Shown: positions 17,546 through 29,029 of the stretch, one piece after another
Numbering within the stretch: position 1 is the first letter of the stretch
Layout of the letters: each line of letters starts with the position of its first letter
Notes under the pieces: generated by a model
Database searches by the model: none
What the model saw: only the letters and a program-made list of their open reading frames with translations
What the model was told of the DNA's origin: nothing
DNA from: a bacterium
GTDB lineage: Bacteria; SZUA-79; Acidulodesulfobacterales; Acidulodesulfobacteraceae
Length of the DNA: 44,987 nt
Assembly (NCBI GenBank): GCA_021822485.1
Contig: JAKAQP010000010.1
Coordinates: forward strand, 1 to 44,987
Reading direction: 5' to 3'
Position numbers and translations under genes: made by a program

Positions 17546-17610
17546 TACTGCGGTTTTTAATGGTGGAGCTGATCGGGGTCGAACCGACGACCTCTTGCAT
17601 GCCATGCAAG
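17546..17610. repeat. Left attachment site (partial tRNA-Ala copy)
   Basis: Identical over 65 bp to 28184-28248. Bases 17561-17610 are the 3' 50 nt of tRNA-Ala on the minus strand, from the anticodon stem to CCA; the copy stops at GCATGCAAG and then diverges. The 5' half of the tRNA is absent, so it is not a functional tRNA. A further imperfect match (GGCTTA, then two mismatches) extends the similarity leftward. Confidence 0.9.
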
Positions 17611-18145: not shown

Positions 18146-18174
18146 TTGACAAAACTTTAAAATACAGGTATCCT
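18146..18174 (+). promoter_or_regulatory. Sigma-70 promoter of the structured RNA locus
   Basis: Consensus TTGACA (18146-18151), exactly 17 bp, then TATCCT (18169-18174). The expected start is near 18181. The next protein-coding start on this strand is 1.3 kb away, and a hairpin-dense region without a coding frame lies between. Confidence 0.65.
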
Positions 18175-18180
18175 AAAATT

Positions 18181-18415
18181 ATATTATGACTTATCTCGTT
18201 CTGTTATGTCGGCTCTGCCAAAACGAACGACTTCCGGCGATGCCATTTTCATTCTGAGTTATGAAAATGTTATCTTTATGATAATTAGCTTTATGCCGGA
18301 CAATTCTTAACTCAGCGTAGTATCGGAGCAACGAAGGCAAGTTGGAGTATGGGCTTAATTTCGTCTCTCATATATTTATAAATTAGATTTTAAAATTTAT
18401 AAATATACTTTTTTT
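18181..18415 (+). ncRNA. Candidate structured RNA with pseudoknot and terminator
   Basis: Downstream of a near-consensus promoter. Pairings seen: TCGTTC (18196-18201)/GAACGA (18225-18230); TCCGGC (18233-18238)/GCCGGA (18295-18300), enclosing a perfect 9-bp hairpin CATTTTCAT/ATGAAAATG (18244-18252/18261-18269); the hairpin loop CTGAGTT (18254-18260) is complementary to AACTCAG (18309-18315), an H-type pseudoknot. The region ends in a 14-bp hairpin (18371-18384/18394-18407) followed by seven T, an intrinsic-terminator layout with an all-A/T stem. I recognise no known RNA family and no coding frame of useful length. RNA identity is inference from structure and promoter. Confidence 0.5.
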
Positions 18416-18648
18416 ATTCTACGGATACCCCTGCAAAACCTCTAATCACCAATACACAAAGAGACAGCTATTTTATTATAAAATAGGTAAAAAGCCCTGT
18501 CTATCCTTGCCGTCCGCACACGTTACGAAAAACAAATTTTACTAAATTAAAGCTCGGATTTTTTGATTCTTAAAAGAAAAATAAAAAATCCGTTCTAATG
18601 TTTTTGCTTTTTGCACTTAAAATTAAAAAGATTTAGTTCGTCGCCGTC

Positions 18649-18814
18649 GCAAGATTTTTAAGGTTTATCAACAAAATTCAATAACGGTTTCATGCTGTTG
18701 AATTTTGCGAAGCAGGCAAAATTAGATTTTTAAATAACAGTTTTATCGTTGTTTAAAAATCGTCAAATTTTGACTGTTGATTAACCGTCAGGCTTTAGCC
18801 TGTAAAAATCTTGC
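18649..18814 (+). other. Four-stem branched structure within the hairpin locus
   Basis: Outer perfect 12-bp stem GCAAGATTTTTA (18649-18660)/TAAAAATCTTGC (18803-18814). Next inside, GGTTTATCAACA (18662-18673)/TGTTGATTAACC (18775-18786), 11 of 12 paired, encloses two hairpins: a 10-bp one (18672-18681/18698-18707) and a 17-bp interrupted one (18717-18734/18752-18772). A CAGGC-TTTA-GCCTG hairpin (18789-18802) fills the gap. This nested arrangement is hard to explain by chance in A+T-rich DNA. Confidence 0.6.
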
Positions 18815-18829
18815 CCACTTACCTAAAAT

Positions 18830-18943
18830 GTTTTTGCCGCCGTAAGGCTTGCGCTCTTTTGTTTTACCCGAAGGGCTTGGGCTTTTAACCGTTTACGGTT
18901 AAAAGACTAAAACAAAACAGCAAGACTGAAGCAAGGCAAAAAC
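18830..18943 (+). other. Nested long hairpin within the hairpin locus
   Basis: GTTTTTGCC (18830-18838)/GGCAAAAAC (18935-18943), then CTTGC (18848-18852)/GCAAG (18920-18924), then TTTTGTTTTA (18857-18866)/TAAAACAAAA (18908-18917), then an 11-bp tip CTTTTAACCGT/ACGGTTAAAAG (18882-18892/18895-18905). All stems are coaxially nested. TTTTGTTTTACCCG recurs at 19306-19319. Confidence 0.55.
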
Positions 18944-18967
18944 CACCCCACTTAAAAACTTCGGAAC

Positions 18968-19079
18968 TAACGAGATATTCGTCGCCGATTTTCTTTTTTT
19001 TACGAAATTTTTCGCAGAAAAATAAGAAAAAAAAGAGAAGCGGCGGGAAACGCAGGCTACGCCTGATATATTTTCGTTA
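18968..19079 (+). other. Nested hairpin with side arm within the hairpin locus
   Basis: TAACGAGATAT (18968-18978) pairs with the 19068-19079 segment ending TCGTTA, with one bulge and one G-T pair. Inside are CGCCG (18983-18987)/CGGCG (19041-19045), CTTTTTTTT (18993-19001)/AAAAAAAAG (19027-19035), ATTTTTC/GAAAAAT with a GCA loop (19007-19023), and a side hairpin CAGGC-TAC-GCCTG (19053-19065). Confidence 0.5.
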
Positions 19080-19145
19080 AATCCGTTGTCAAATATCAAA
19101 ACGCCCGTATTCACGGGAAATCAGAGAATTAAAACCATATAGGGA

Positions 19146-19249
19146 ATCCTAACCCATAAAATTATCTAATGTAAGTCGCCCCGACGTCTTATTAGCCGTA
19201 AGATGTTTTTAAAGATTCGAAAATGGGCGCTGACAGATAATATTAGGAT
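19146..19249 (+). other. Nested hairpin within the hairpin locus
   Basis: ATCCTAA (19146-19152)/TTAGGAT (19243-19249), ATTATC (19161-19166)/GATAAT (19236-19241), CGCCC (19177-19181)/GGGCG (19225-19229) and ACGTCTTA (19184-19191)/TAAGATGT (19199-19206), all nested in order. Confidence 0.45.
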
Positions 19250-19480
19250 AAAATTTTGGCTTATAGAGAGCCAATCAAAATAAATCTCTTTCATGCATTT
19301 ACAATTTTTGTTTTACCCGGAACGCTCAGCGTATCCGGCTGCACTAAAATAGGCTATAAGGCAGGCGCAACCTTTAAATTGCGTATTATTGCAAAATTGA
19401 GTTTTGCAATAATTAAAGGATATAGTCTTGTCTAAAAACAGACACACCCCCCTGCCTACGGCGGGGAAAAAGGAGAATTT

Positions 19481-20413
19481 ATGAAAGAAAAAGAAAGAGT
19501 ATTTGAACATTCACGCTTTAACAGCTCTATTAACGCCGGCTATATTGCTCGCGATATTATTACAAACACAGAGCGCGGAACTGCAACGGAGGAAAAAATA
19601 GTCACGGTTCTTAATGCAATTCACGCGACTGAACACATTTCGAGTTTAAACCGTATTAATACAGATGTTATTAAAAATTACGAAAATTATCTAAAAGATA
19701 GATATGATAATAAATCCACCAAACCCCTTAAAGCCCACAGCGTTCAAGGCTACGCCGCCGCCATGAACGCTATCACAAATTATATAAACTTAAGAACCGA
19801 TAAAAATTTACCCGAAGTCTCCGCTTTCAAAGATTTGGGCATTAAAAATGTTATTAAGTATGGCGGAAAATCTACGCCTACGGAGCTTTTTAAAAGAGTT
19901 TACGAAAAATTAAGCGAAGCGAACCAAATAAAGCAGGAACTTCAACGAAACTTAGGTTTACGGGTTCGGGAATCGCACTGGATTAAAATAGACACGATTA
20001 AAGAAGCTCTGCAAACCGGCATTTTAAGACTCAACGCAATAAATAACGACGGCACCAAAAATTCAAGGATGCGCGAAATGAAAATCTGGACTGATAAGCA
20101 AAGAAACACGCTGATTAAAACTTTAAACTATATGGAAAAAACAGGGCAAAAGTCTATGATTGAAAACGATAAAACTTGGGCGCAGGCTCAGGATAAATTC
20201 TATAGGGATATGGAAAAAGCCGGCGGAACCAGAGCCGCAAATAATGGAAATAATTTTTGCCACGGAAACAGGCATTATAACACGAATGACAAAGCAGATA
20301 ATATTCTGCCCGCCTTCAAAATTAAAAATGAAAAAGAAATCGATAAAATATGCAGTCAAGAAAATGGACACGGCGAACTGCGGACGACGGACATATATCG
20401 GGGTAAACATTAA
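19481..20413 (+). CDS. Tyrosine recombinase of the Integrase_1-like group
   Basis: DNA strand-exchange enzyme, second recombinase of the element. Of 310 residues, about 1-120 form an SAM-like core-binding domain (INTDVIKNYENYLKDRY, HSVQGYAAAMNAITNYI). The catalytic part has LGLRVRES (first Arg), a GTKNSRMREMKI strand turn, HGNRH (His-x-x-Arg) and GHGELRTTDIY with the Tyr nucleophile, so the active site looks complete. The wording of the motifs fits the integrase family often found inside ICEs rather than Xer or phage integrases. GGAG precedes the ATG. It directly follows the hairpin-dense region and overlaps the next small gene by one base. Confidence 0.7.
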   Translation: MKEKERVFEHSRFNSSINAGYIARDIITNTERGTATEEKIVTVLNAIHATEHISSLNRINTDVIKNYENYLKDRYDNKSTKPLKAHSVQGYAAAMNAITNYINLRTDKNLPEVSAFKDLGIKNVIKYGGKSTPTELFKRVYEKLSEANQIKQELQRNLGLRVRESHWIKIDTIKEALQTGILRLNAINNDGTKNSRMREMKIWTDKQRNTLIKTLNYMEKTGQKSMIENDKTWAQAQDKFYRDMEKAGGTRAANNGNNFCHGNRHYNTNDKADNILPAFKIKNEKEIDKICSQENGHGELRTTDIYRGKH

Positions 20414-20691
20414 TGGGACAATTAATAAACGAATACTATCAAACTAAAGAATTTAAGAAACGAAACCGGAAACGTTCTAAAGAATGGCAAACCCGCCGGA
20501 CTAATATCGTTCTGGAATTTCTACGGTATGCCGAATTTAAAAAAATCCTGCGGCTAAAAGATATTGACGAAGCGATTTATTCGGCTTATATTAATCAACT
20601 GCACAGGTCAACCCATTCAGAAAATACAATACGACAATATAAAAATATCCTTAAGCAAGACCTGTTAAGCCACTTTCAACCTTTAAAATAA
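20413..20691 (+). CDS. Small core-binding-domain protein
   Basis: A 92-residue basic protein, TAATG-coupled to the recombinase. Residues 1-35 are highly basic; the rest (LKDIDEAIYSAYINQLHRSTHSENTIRQYKNILKQDL) resembles the SAM-like N-terminal domain of tyrosine recombinases. No catalytic domain follows, so it is either a domain-only DNA-binding accessory (excisionase-like or competitor) or the remnant of a longer integrase. Its 3' end overlaps a weak minus-strand frame. Confidence 0.5.
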   Translation: MGQLINEYYQTKEFKKRNRKRSKEWQTRRTNIVLEFLRYAEFKKILRLKDIDEAIYSAYINQLHRSTHSENTIRQYKNILKQDLLSHFQPLK

Positions 20692-21161: not shown

Positions 21162-22313
21162 TTACGGATGCTGCGGACCGGAATAAGGGAAATATTGCGG
21201 ACCCTTTGCTACGGATACAAGTTTCGTAACACTGTTGCTGCCGGAATTTGCCACCCATACGTTACCCGAAGCGTCGATTGCTATGGCGTCAGGCTCAGTC
21301 CCGGCAACGTAAGTGCCTATAGTAGCGCCGGACGGACTTAATTCCGTAACATTAGAGTCTTCGGGGGCCGTTCCTACGGTGCCGTTGCCCACATTTGCCA
21401 CCCATACGTTACCCGAAGCGTCGATTGCTATGGCGTCAGGCCAAGACCCGGCAGCATAAGTGCCGATAGTAGCGCCGGAAGGACTCAGTTCCGTAACGTT
21501 GTTGCTGAACTTATTTGTCACCCATACGTTGCCCGAAGCGTCGATTGCTATGGCGAGAGGATTAGACCCGGCAACGTAAGTGCCTATAGTAGCGCCGGAC
21601 GGACTCAGTTTCGTAACATTAGAGTCTCCGTGAGCCGTTCCTACGATGCCGCCGTTGCCAAAATTTGCCACCCATACGTTACCCGAAGCGTCGATTGCTA
21701 TGGCTTGAGGATTAATCCCGGCAGCATAAGTGTGTAAAAGCGCGCCGGACGGACTTAATTCCGTAACATTAGAGTCTTCGGTGGCCGCTCCTACGGTGCC
21801 GTTGCCGTAATTTGTCACCCATACGTTACCCGAAGCGTCGATTGCTATGGCGAGAGGATTAGTCCCGGCAGCATAAGTGTGTAAAAGCGCGCCGGACGGA
21901 CTCAGTTCCGTAACGTTGTTGCTGAACTGATTTGTCACCCATACGTTACCCGAAGCGTCGATTGCTATGGCGTCAGGCCAAGACCCGGCAGCATAAGTGC
22001 CGATAGTAGCGCCGGAAGGACTCAGTTCCGTAACGTTGTTGCTGAACTTATTTGCCACCCATACGTTACCCGAAGCGTCGATTGCTATGGCGGAAGGAGC
22101 AAACCCGACAGCATAAGTAGGACCACTGCTTGGACTGCCGCTTGAACTGCTTGAACTGCTGTTAGAACTGCTTCCTCCGTTTCTGAAGCCGGACAAGGCA
22201 AACGGTATAACGGCAAAGATAAACAATAGCGCAATTAATACGGAAAACTTGCGGGCATTGTTTTTTAGCGGCCGGTTTTTTAGAGCGCTCGTTTTAAAGA
22301 TAGATTTAAACAT
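21162..22313 (-). CDS. Exported seven-bladed beta-propeller protein (NHL/Vgb-like)
   Basis: A 383-residue protein with a basic N terminus, one hydrophobic segment (about 25-43, a signal anchor or signal peptide ending near ALSGF), a Ser/Gly linker and then seven near-identical repeats of 40-48 residues with the core AIAIDASGNVWV and VTELSPSGATIGTY. Seven such repeats make one complete propeller of the NHL/virginiamycin-lyase-like type, usually a binding or scaffold domain. No lyase residues were recognised. AAGGAG precedes the ATG. The repeats are so similar at DNA level that unit loss, gain and conversion with the paralogue at 23387-24676 are expected. Confidence 0.75.
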   Translation of the reverse strand: MFKSIFKTSALKNRPLKNNARKFSVLIALLFIFAVIPFALSGFRNGGSSSNSSSSSSSGSPSSGPTYAVGFAPSAIAIDASGNVWVANKFSNNVTELSPSGATIGTYAAGSWPDAIAIDASGNVWVTNQFSNNVTELSPSGALLHTYAAGTNPLAIAIDASGNVWVTNYGNGTVGAATEDSNVTELSPSGALLHTYAAGINPQAIAIDASGNVWVANFGNGGIVGTAHGDSNVTKLSPSGATIGTYVAGSNPLAIAIDASGNVWVTNKFSNNVTELSPSGATIGTYAAGSWPDAIAIDASGNVWVANVGNGTVGTAPEDSNVTELSPSGATIGTYVAGTEPDAIAIDASGNVWVANSGSNSVTKLVSVAKGPQYFPYSGPQHP

Positions 22314-23386: not shown

Positions 23387-24676
23387 TTACGGATGCTGCG
23401 GACCGGAATAAGGGAAATATTGCGGACCCTTTGCTACGGATGCAAGTTTCGTAACGCCGCCGCTTTCGCCGATGCTGGCCTCATTTGCCACCCATACGTT
23501 GCCCGAAGCGTCGATTGCTATGGCGTGAGGATAAGACCCTGCAGCATAAGTGCCTATAGTAGCGCCGGACGGACTTAATTCCGTAACGTTAGAGTCTTCG
23601 GGGGCCGTTCCTGCGGTGCCGTTGCCGTAATTTGTCACCCATACGTTACCCGAAGCGTCGATTGCTATGGCGAGAGGATTAGACCCGGCAACGTAAGTGC
23701 CTATAGTAGCGCCGGACGGACTCAGTTTCGTAACATTAGAGTCTCCGGGAGCCGTTCCTGCGGTGCCGTTGCCCTCATTTGCCACCCATACGTTACCCGA
23801 AGCGTCGATTGCTATGGCTTGAGGCCTAACTCCGGCAACGTAAGTGCCTATAGTAGCGCCGGACGGACTTAATTCCGTAACGTTAGAGTCTTCGGGGGCC
23901 GTTCCTGCGGTGCCGTTGCCGTAATTTGTCACCCATACGTTACCCGAAGCGTCGATTGCTATGGCGAGAGGATTAGACCCGGCAACGTAAGTGCCTATAG
24001 TAGCGCCGGACGGACTCAGTTTCGTAACATTAGAGTCTCCGTGAGCCGTTCCTACGATGCCGCCGTTGCCAAAATTTGCCACCCATACGTTACCCGAAGC
24101 GTCGATTGCTATGGCGTCAGGCTCAGTCCCGGCAACGTAAGTGCCTATAGTAGCGCCGGACGGACTCAGTTCCGTAACATTAGAGTCTCCGGGAGCCGTT
24201 CCTACGATGCCACCGCCGCCGTTGCCCACATTTACCACCCATACGTTGCCCACATTTACCACCCATACGTTGCCCGAAGCGTCGATTGCTATGGCGTGAG
24301 GATCAGACCCGGCAACGTAAGTGCCGATAGTAGCGCCGGACGGACTCAGTTCCGTAACGTTAGAGTCTCCAAAGGCCTTTGCTTCGATGCCGGTGCCGTA
24401 GCCCTCGTTTGCCACCCATACGTTACCCGAAGCGTCGATTGCTACGGCGAAAGGAGCAAGCCCGGTGGCGTAAGTAGGACCACTGCTTGGACTGCCGCTT
24501 GAACTGCTTGAACTGCTGTTAGAACTGCTTCCGCCGCTTGTGTTTCTGAAGCCGGACAAGGCAAACGGTATAACGGCAAAGATAAACAATAGCGCAATTA
24601 ATACGGAAAACTTGCGGGCATTGTTTTTTAGCGGCCGGTTTTTTAGAGCGCTCGTTTTAAAGATAGATTTAAACAT
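23387..24676 (-). CDS. Exported seven-bladed beta-propeller protein, paralogue
   Basis: A 429-residue paralogue of the protein at 21162-22313. The first 45 residues and the last 15 are almost identical, with the same Ser-rich linker and again seven AIDASGNVWV-type repeats; most blades carry a longer DSNVTELSPSGATIGTYVAG segment. One blade contains a duplicated NVWVVNVG octapeptide caused by a 24-bp tandem duplication (24221-24268). Promoter region and terminator are copies of those of the first gene. Location is probably periplasmic or surface; the ligand is unknown. Confidence 0.75.
   Translation of the reverse strand: MFKSIFKTSALKNRPLKNNARKFSVLIALLFIFAVIPFALSGFRNTSGGSSSNSSSSSSSGSPSSGPTYATGLAPFAVAIDASGNVWVANEGYGTGIEAKAFGDSNVTELSPSGATIGTYVAGSDPHAIAIDASGNVWVVNVGNVWVVNVGNGGGGIVGTAPGDSNVTELSPSGATIGTYVAGTEPDAIAIDASGNVWVANFGNGGIVGTAHGDSNVTKLSPSGATIGTYVAGSNPLAIAIDASGNVWVTNYGNGTAGTAPEDSNVTELSPSGATIGTYVAGVRPQAIAIDASGNVWVANEGNGTAGTAPGDSNVTKLSPSGATIGTYVAGSNPLAIAIDASGNVWVTNYGNGTAGTAPEDSNVTELSPSGATIGTYAAGSYPHAIAIDASGNVWVANEASIGESGGVTKLASVAKGPQYFPYSGPQHP
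24221..24268. repeat. 24-bp tandem duplication inside a propeller blade
   Basis: Two exact copies (24221-24244 and 24245-24268), adding eight residues in frame to the second blade. It is a recent slippage or unequal crossover event and is absent from the paralogue. Confidence 0.85.
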
Positions 24677-26996: not shown

Positions 26997-28067
26997 TTAT
27001 TTTTTACTCCAAACATCGTCAACCGCTTTCTTAAGCGTCTCAGGGACTAAATGGCTATACCGCTTCGTCATTTGCGTCGTCCTATGTCCTAACAGTTCGC
27101 CTGTAATAAATAAAGACGTCCCGTTTTTAACCATTTTTGACGCAAAAACATGCCTTAAATCATGTATCCTTAAGTCTTTTAATCCCGCATTTTTACAGGC
27201 GGTTTTAAAAGAACGCTTAAAATCGTTTAATTTAGCCCCGTTTTTATTGAATACATATTCAGATTTTTCTTTTTTGGTAGGGGACAAATTGTCCCCTACC
27301 ACTTTTTCTTTCTCAATACCGCCTAAAAGTTCTTTCAGCGGCTTACTTATAGGAACATAGCGGTCGTATTTCGTTTTAGTCCCTTTTATCGCTATTATAT
27401 CGTTCTGCAAGTCCACGTCGTCCCATTTAAGATTTAAAGCCTCGCCTTTACGACAGCCGGTATAAATAAGAAAGGTTATCAGGTCTTTAGTAAGTTTATT
27501 CGTAGCCCCGGCGATAAGTTTATTTATATCTTGGTCGGATAAGGTTTTTAGGCGGGATAGTTCGTTGAGTTTCTTAATGCCGACGCAGGGGTTCTTATCG
27601 AGATAGCCTTTTTTAATGCAAAAAACAAAAAAATTATATAATGTAGCAATTTCGATATTAATTAATCTGAAACTTATATCCTGCTCTCTTTTGCCTGTAT
27701 TTTTTGGCATAGATAATACTTCAAGTTTTCTTATAAGCTGATATTTCTCTAAATCGGCGACGGAAATATTTTTAATATCCGAATTATTAAATACCGGCAA
27801 GAAATGTTTTGACATATGCGTCCTTAATTCTTTAGTCGCGAATGAAACTGTTTGGCTCCCGATATATTCTGTAAAAACTTCTTTAAATGTATATTTGCCC
27901 GCATTTTTAATCGGTATATTAAACCTATCCCGTATCGTATCCGCATAAATTGCCGAAGCTATCTCTTGGGCGGTTTCTTTATCTTTCGTCTTGCAGGAAT
28001 ATTGATAATGCTTGTTATCAAGCCTAAATTCGCACCAAAAAACCTGTCCGCGCTTATAAATTCTCAT
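26997..28067 (-). CDS. int: Tyrosine-type site-specific integrase
   Basis: Catalyses integration at tRNA-Ala. The 356-residue protein has an N-terminal arm-binding-like part (IYKRGQVFWCEFRLDNKHYQYSCKTKD), a SAM-like core-binding domain (about 65-165) and the catalytic domain with the full set: TGCRKGEALNLKW (Arg), the TKTKYDRYVPI beta-turn Lys region, HDLRHVFAS (His-x-x-Arg), LGHRTTQMTKRYSHL (His and the Tyr nucleophile). It sits 131 bp from the tRNA-Ala 3' end and faces away from it, as in other tRNA-borne islands. It appears intact. Confidence 0.93.
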   Translation of the reverse strand: MRIYKRGQVFWCEFRLDNKHYQYSCKTKDKETAQEIASAIYADTIRDRFNIPIKNAGKYTFKEVFTEYIGSQTVSFATKELRTHMSKHFLPVFNNSDIKNISVADLEKYQLIRKLEVLSMPKNTGKREQDISFRLINIEIATLYNFFVFCIKKGYLDKNPCVGIKKLNELSRLKTLSDQDINKLIAGATNKLTKDLITFLIYTGCRKGEALNLKWDDVDLQNDIIAIKGTKTKYDRYVPISKPLKELLGGIEKEKVVGDNLSPTKKEKSEYVFNKNGAKLNDFKRSFKTACKNAGLKDLRIHDLRHVFASKMVKNGTSLFITGELLGHRTTQMTKRYSHLVPETLKKAVDDVWSKK

Positions 28068-28183: not shown

Positions 28184-28248
28184 TACTGCGGTTTTTAATG
28201 GTGGAGCTGATCGGGGTCGAACCGACGACCTCTTGCATGCCATGCAAG
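28184..28248. repeat. Right attachment site (overlaps tRNA-Ala)
   Basis: Identical over 65 bp to 17546-17610. It covers the 3' 50 nt of the intact tRNA-Ala and 15 bp beyond its CCA end. Recombination between the two copies would excise 10.6 kb and leave the tRNA intact. Confidence 0.9.
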
Positions 28249-28274
28249 CGCTCTGCCAACTGAGCTACAGCCCC
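28199..28274 (-). tRNA. tRNA-Ala (anticodon GGC)
   Basis: A 76-nt cloverleaf on the minus strand: acceptor GGGGCTG/CAGCTCC with the G3-U70 pair that identifies alanine tRNAs, D arm with AGCTCAGTTGGCAGAGC, anticodon stem CTTGC/GCAAG with loop ATGGCAT (anticodon GGC), T arm with GTTCGAC, and an encoded CCA. It serves as the integration target of the adjacent element. Confidence 0.97.
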
Positions 28275-28610
28275 ATTATATACATTTCGGTTTAATTAAT
28301 TTTATAATACTATAATATAAGGTTTTAAGTCAATAAAAAACATAAACTTAATCCTGCGTTAGAAATTTTTAATCCTATCGTATCCCTAAGGGGGGTATTT
28401 TTTAAATTGAATAAATTAAACAATTTTTTAGGCGGTTTTTTTCGTCTAAATTCTATAATGCTATATTATAATGCATTATATTATTATTTATCTAAATTTA
28501 CATTTATATTTATCTTAACATAAGATTATGTGTAGAATATTACATAATTATATAGTCCATATATTTAATTCCATATGTTTTTATAGCTTTTAATCAAATA
28601 AAGGCATAAA

Positions 28611-28681
28611 AAAATAACCGTACAAAAATAACCGTACAAAAATAATTGGACAAAATTAACCGGACGAATTAACCGGACGAC
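28611..28681. repeat. Degenerate 13-14-bp tandem repeat
   Basis: About five units of the form AAAATAACCGTAC, drifting to AATTAACCGGAC. Located in the gene-free stretch 28275-29029. No gene is seen in 28275-28610. Confidence 0.6.
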
Positions 28682-28709
28682 TTGAAATTTCAAAAATATG
28701 CGTTATAAT
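28682..28709 (+). promoter_or_regulatory. Promoter for a candidate small RNA
   Basis: TTGAAA (28682-28687), 16-bp spacer, consensus TATAAT (28704-28709). Predicted start near 28716. Confidence 0.55.
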
Positions 28710-28715
28710 TAAATT

Positions 28716-28881
28716 AAAGAAAGAAAATAAATTTGAGGCAAAGGAATTTAAGAATATATATTTATCAAAGGAATTTAAGAATATATATTTATTATGCAGC
28801 ATGCCGCCGTCAGTCAGTTTAATGCTTAACTTTAAGCACATTGGACGTTAAAAACCAGTGACTGCAACGGCGGTATTTTTA
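28716..28881 (+). ncRNA. Candidate small RNA of about 165 nt
   Basis: Runs from the promoter to a strong hairpin with a T tract and contains no credible gene. The 5' part holds two copies of a 27-bp unit (28740-28766 and 28767-28792; AAAGGAATTTAAG core). The 3' end is ATGCCGCCGT (28801-28810) paired with ACGGCGGTAT (28867-28876), AGTCA/TGACT inside (28812-28816/28859-28863), and an inner hairpin TGCTTAA/TTAAGCA (28823-28829/28832-28838), followed by TTTTTATTT. It could be an independent RNA or a terminated leader ahead of the HIT gene. I recognise no riboswitch class. Confidence 0.4.
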
Positions 28882-29029
28882 TTTCAAAATAAGATTTTGC
28901 TTTCATGTATTAATCTCAATCCTACCGAATACCAAAAATAACAAATATAATTTATCGCCGTCCCGCTTTTAAATTCTTTTCGTAAAATTTTATTGTTTAA
29001 ATTTCATAAATTATTTATAATAAAAAATT

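Follow-up and report, generated by a model that had tools for sequence, protein, structure and literature searches.

A gene-free kilobase of closely packed hairpins lies directly upstream of a tyrosine recombinase gene in the 44,987-nt stretch of DNA analyzed here (the window), and it raises the question of what kind of element these hairpins form. The first-pass annotation had offered three readings: a large ornate RNA such as GOLLD or ROOL, a giant leader, or DNA folded for replication or transfer. By a stem scan and in the predicted fold, all stems that it had named were found in their places, including the exact 12-bp outer stem, the coaxial set, the last nested set, and the final hairpin just before the GGAG of the recombinase (Table 1); a further nested set, described at 18968-19079, was present and was mapped with slightly wider limits. 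When folded as RNA, the plus strand of 18462-19461 gave a z score of −10.55 against dinucleotide shuffles, none of which was equally stable, and the minus strand gave a weaker −5.95; with DNA energies the region reached −11.8, never equaled by a shuffle. One control gap (28280-29020, +) also gave a z score of −7.6, on 10 shuffles. The excess stability of −0.070 kcal/mol/nt compares with a median of about −0.02 in 35 intergenic gaps of related loci, three of which equal or exceed the hairpin kilobase, one of the three being a recombinase-upstream gap. For the most upstream long-range pairings (18463-18617) the pair probability is only 0.1-0.2. The gene-free sequence 18462-19461 had no Pfam, Rfam, or conserved ORF match. 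Chance as the source of its fold is excluded, and the hairpin kilobase is real as an observation and stronger than chance.

Table 1. Features of the hairpin region and of the island around it (positions in the window)
Feature	Positions	Strand	Remarks
65-bp exact copy of tRNA-Ala 3′ part, far attachment repeat	17546..17610	−	Exact repeat
M1: promoter TTGACA-17-TATCCT and compact, apparently pseudoknotted leader	18146..18321	+	
14-bp perfect A/T-rich inverted repeat, then T-run	18371..18417	+	Terminator-like by eye; not in scan, which requires G-C pairs
Hairpin with minus-strand promoter TAGACA-17-TATAAT (11/12)	18460..18505	−	−35 in stem, −10 over loop
A/T-rich hairpin	18551..18596	+	Pair probability 0.96
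M2 element copy, ends approximate	18599..18829	+	Outer stem 18649-18660/18803-18814
M2 core, 143 nt	18646..18788	+	Four covarying helices, tip hairpins at 18681 and 18734
D3 coaxial hairpin	18830..18943	+	Predicted fold, comparison with G002
D4 nested set	18958..19089	+	23-pair stem 18978-19003/19026-19049
D5 nested set	19146..19249	+	Predicted fold, comparison with G002
Nearly invariant stretch	19250..19303	+	Hairpin GGCTTATAGAGAGCC; loop possibly pairs with ATCTCT downstream
Perfect 12-bp hairpin	19385..19413	+	Overlaps promoter-like TTGAGT-18-TATAGT (19397-19426)
G/C hairpin	19447..19466	+	Directly before recombinase ribosome site (GGAG)
Tyrosine recombinase, 310 aa	19481..20413	+	Catalytic R-K-H-x-x-R-H-Y conserved
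92-aa SAM-like (integrase N-terminal type) partner	20413..20691	+	3′ of tyrosine recombinase
Island's own integrase adjoining tRNA-Ala	26997..28067	−	
Partner attachment repeat inside intact tRNA-Ala (GGC) gene 28199-28274	28184..28248	−	

The 65-bp tRNA-Ala repeat, together with an integrase beside the intact tRNA gene, places the hairpin region within a 10.6-kb integrated island. The recombinase that follows the hairpins is the second tyrosine recombinase of this island and keeps all catalytic residues. NCBIfam had no model for it, and an IMG/VR search with it returned no relative. Phage and plasmid blastn searches gave no match. Related islands in other genomes were inserted at tRNA-Pro, tRNA-Val, and tRNA-Gly genes. 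The cargo of the window island apparently includes two NHL/SMP-30-type beta-propeller proteins (21162-22313 and 23387-24676). Among the related loci, a conjugation-gene cluster with a tyrosine integrase (L099, G004:C126) abuts tRNA-Ala (GGC), the tRNA type of the window island, and another such cluster (L165, G016:C1) carries two tandem tyrosine integrases. Possible multi-recombinase (RIT-like) elements are three operons (L172 136-4135, L175 1167-5194, and L174 248-3832) that combine a tyrosine recombinase with a SAM-like protein and proteins of ~330 and ~440 aa.

MAGs of a single family make up the related genomes; in the genome collection this family forms its whole phylum (30 genomes), presumably the acid-mine-drainage Acidulodesulfobacterota (SZUA-79). 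The whole kilobase was common to one related genome alone, G002 (~71-79% identity; 69% amino acid identity for the recombinase), in which many stems were kept. The helix 19161-19167/19235-19241 of D5 had 6/7 pairs doubly changed between G000 and G002, D3 retained its outer pairs with the remainder redrawn, and the hairpin that opens the region on the left (18460-18505) was identical at 45 of 46 bases. D3-D6 in full were common to one other genome only. A D3-like sequence stands upstream of another recombinase in G019, where M1 and D3 precede the recombinase without M2 in between, and was also found in G023:C195. Two modules were distributed more widely, M1 upstream of the hairpin region and M2 (18617-18815) inside it. 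Most related recombinases are preceded by hairpin-rich gaps of unrelated sequence, which fold about equally well on both strands. We give an even chance to the view that this kilobase is pieced together from DNA hairpin elements and set between the M1 promoter/leader and the recombinase within the tRNA-Ala-integrated island.

M1 was placed upstream of different mobile-element operons, twice in some of them (L084 7704 and 13731; L088 6038 and 11213; L087 6515; L090 3300). Its apparent pseudoknot pairs CUGAGUUA with UAACUCAG, changing to CGGAGU/ACUCCG, and M1 has the look of a leader family, put- or riboswitch-like. Matches of the M1 pattern in IMG/VR were due to chance. The minus-strand promoter in the 18460-18505 hairpin faces the M1 promoter, so that an antisense transcript may cover M1. 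The suggestion of a giant leader fared poorly here: the M1 leader is followed by the A/T-rich hairpin and T-run, and a promoter-like site precedes the recombinase itself (Table 1).

The comparison of homologues called for by the first-pass annotation showed that the stems of M2 are conserved by covariation. Across 15 homologues and four helices, 97.1% of cells were paired and 25 of the 47 pairs showed double changes. The covariation score was 0.384, against 0.110 after shuffling (0/500 shuffles), and slid versions did not exceed 0.124; the M2 fold is strongly supported. One stem of the M2 part in the window (18725-18738/18748-18761) paired at 14/14 positions in the predicted fold and at 13/14 in the ungapped repeat list. 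Two of the M2 helices are copies of one hairpin, which consists of a perfect stem of free sequence and an ATARC...GYTGT tip with an invariant T.G pair. More than 20 distinct versions of this tip hairpin were found, with stems that were perfect but variable and with ATARC/GYTGT and the T.G pair constant. Conservation extends to the internal loop TTAG/CGTTAA, which separates helices 3 and 4, and three G.U pairs in M2 are fixed. With DNA energies, the plus strand of M2 folded with a z score of −7.2.

A covariance model identified 34 M2 matches in 17 of the 30 genomes of the phylum, one of them in the genome of the window, at 1-4 copies per genome. The M2 pattern had 11 matches among 84,980 species genomes, in MAGs of the same family, and no match in IMG/VR. 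M2 copies share flanks well beyond the core. At the VirD4-c45 junction, a 12-bp gap in G004 corresponds to ~360 bp holding a ~0.3-kb M2 unit in G023, and a 270-aa tra gene has M2 directly upstream in G004, which is absent from the orthologues in G023:C51, G022, G019, and G026. Since these two tra-operon junctions with M2 are empty in orthologues, M2 behaves as a dispersed, apparently mobile unit of ~0.3 kb. The junctions examined had no terminal inverted repeats and no clear target duplication, and we found no transposase, relaxase site, or target duplication tied to M2. M2 is apparently a dispersed, non-autonomous, mobile structured element of ~0.2-0.35 kb on the plasmids, ICEs, and islands of the phylum. 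With regard to the counter-suggestion that the hairpins are unrelated inserted repeats, insertion holds for the M2 part, while "unrelated" does not, because its copies form one structured family.

In one genome (G014), retron-type reverse transcriptases lie near M2-like matches (L160 4919-5680 (−) and L164 989-1696 (−)), and a gap upstream of a retron-type reverse transcriptase (L164 2814-3403) folds with a z score of −15. A retron reading of M2 was rejected; retron-like reverse transcriptases were near M2-like matches in this genome alone, and M2 is antisense to the reverse transcriptase in L160. The same contig carries a HEARO RNA (L160 14279-14503 (−), 110 bits) outside the hairpin region.

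When we examined orientation, the folded strand of M2 was antisense to TrwC/VirD4/ParA/ParB/Rep genes on 12/12 annotated plasmid-type contigs, which would give p ~0.0005 if the counts were independent, which they are not, as plasmid lineages are shared. Islands carry M2 in either orientation, and the window copy has the same sense as the recombinase. The polarity on plasmids is that expected of the transferred strand, and analogy with F suggests that the folded strand is the T-strand. DNA rather than RNA is favored because of this polarity and because G-U is rare in M2, where extra pair types comprise 7 G-U and 37 Watson-Crick (7/44, vs 9:9 or 9/18 in M1); at variable pairs, G-U and A-C are equally frequent in M2 (9:8, vs 10:2 in M1, a difference that is not significant). 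It is also favored because no conserved −35/−10 promoter occurs inside M2, plasmid copies included, and because the recombinase-upstream gaps of unrelated sequence fold on both strands; despite this both-strand folding, the fixed T.G pairs of M2 single out one strand. Against DNA stand the mixed orientation in islands and the three fixed G.U pairs, which would suit RNA too.

We consider it an evenly balanced matter whether M2 is a strand-specific single-stranded DNA element of mobile DNA and not a GOLLD/ROOL-like RNA or a giant leader. In the single-stranded DNA reading, one defined strand would be active in folded form; its stems may vary freely while pairing perfectly, and its fixed tip and T.G mismatch would mark the strand for a protein. 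M2 would act during conjugative transfer or some other single-stranded stage of the mobile element, and its job may be that of a priming or processing site, or its own movement. A wider proposal, which we put forward tentatively and with a modest chance of being right, is that M2 would be the first known family of strand-marked mobile single-stranded DNA and a transfer or priming signal that plasmids, ICEs, and non-conjugative islands within a single phylum have in common; the islands would thus use plasmid transfer machinery, and the 1-kb region would be a composite landing and processing platform beside a dedicated recombinase. For this uncultured phylum of acid mines, M2 is a well-defined structured element, backed by covariation and common to plasmids, ICEs, and islands; should the single-strand reading be true, it would offer a testable signal for the movement of relaxase-less islands. 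Although covariation is commonly taken to prove an RNA, its source in M2 is probably a DNA hairpin, a warning that a large covarying fold is not always a noncoding RNA.

Selfish or neutral debris would account for stems that are perfect yet freely changing, for the few G-U intermediates, and for the dispersed copies and mixed island orientation, if template switching keeps hairpins perfect and they build up in a tolerant gap with no role in the island. However, the fixed T.G mismatch and the conserved TTAG/CGTTAA loop should be corrected or lost without selection, and the plasmid polarity also argues against debris, which we regard as unlikely. One large structured RNA of the GOLLD/ROOL kind, or a giant 5′ leader of the recombinase, is rather unlikely as well. 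The plus strand does fold better than the minus strand as RNA, the whole stretch and its stems are common to G002, the M1 promoter is directed into the hairpin stretch, and the fixed G.U pairs fit, whereas no Rfam match was obtained at gathering thresholds or permissive E-values, the region is a mosaic with M2 alone at ~30 other places and with M1 and D3 but no M2 in G019, M2 is antisense to its neighbors on plasmids, and G-U intermediates are scarce. The Rfam covariance models of GOLLD, ROOL, OLE, and HEARO had no match in the window, and those of the first three had none in related loci either; a weak group I intron match (13.8 bits vs gathering 50) was attributed to chance. That the hairpins are a recombination site, folded or double-stranded DNA bound and joined by the tyrosine recombinase in the manner of integron integrases acting on attC, is improbable, for although recombinases catalytically intact by their residues adjoin hairpin-rich gaps in many elements and M2 has a strand-marking mismatch, plasmid copies of M2 have no recombinase nearby, the M2 tip is unlike the attC R-box pattern, and the island already carries an integrase and tRNA attachment repeats of its own. 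Overall, a single giant RNA finds no support, the suggestion of DNA folded for replication or transfer is favored on the polarity of M2, its few G-U pairs, and the both-strand hairpin gaps, and part of the hairpins are inserted copies from a structured mobile family. The first-pass annotation is partly supported.

These features can be set beside known systems. GOLLD, ROOL, and OLE RNAs likewise consist of nested stems over ~0.6-1 kb and are found in mobile DNA with a tRNA link; in contrast, the hairpin kilobase matches no model, is a mosaic with DNA-like evolution, and is linked to a tRNA only as the insertion site of its island. Integron attC sites have RYYYAAC...GTTRRRY boxes at the hairpin base, whereas M2, by eye, conserves the tip and varies at the base. 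MITEs or IS200/IS605-derived non-autonomous elements are, like M2, short, non-coding, and dispersed with subterminal hairpins, and presence or absence at two orthologous junctions is also in keeping with such mobile repeats, but M2 has no terminal inverted repeats or clear target duplication. REP/REPIN sequences with RAYT are dispersed palindromic DNA whose hairpins contain mismatches, as in M2 (PMC3116915, PMC6006769); the M2 fold is longer and branched (core of 143 nt vs a 20-40 nt palindrome), has few copies rather than a high copy number, and carries its tip motif instead of a GTAG/CGTC foot. A RAYT/REP link was rejected: the flanks retrieved for the Y1/RAYT-like loci that were examined contain no M2 tips, and no Y1 transposase locus bearing M2 tips was found among them. 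In L233, a RAYT-like Y1 gene lies between two copies of the hairpin ATAAAAGCATTGCTTTTAT (1049-1067 and 2759-2777), which is probably the REP of this phylum; related hairpins occur in L231 and L232.

In F-like plasmids, early transcription and priming begin at single-stranded hairpins known as Frpo (PMC9849209, PMC11541004). M2 resembles these Frpo/ssi single-stranded DNA promoters as a few hundred bases of hairpin-rich DNA on conjugative plasmids, with several copies per element (PMC9849209, PMC11541004). It also folds as single-stranded DNA, and its antisense position relative to plasmid genes is what the transferred strand would be expected to show. The separate hairpin at 18460-18505 has a −35/−10 pair across stem and loop. 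Unlike Frpo, M2 has no conserved −35/−10 pair for a promoter inside it, and the likeness is drawn from features, not from sequence similarity. M2 belongs to the dispersed structured elements, a kind already known, and within that kind it is a previously unlisted family of strand-marked hairpin elements.
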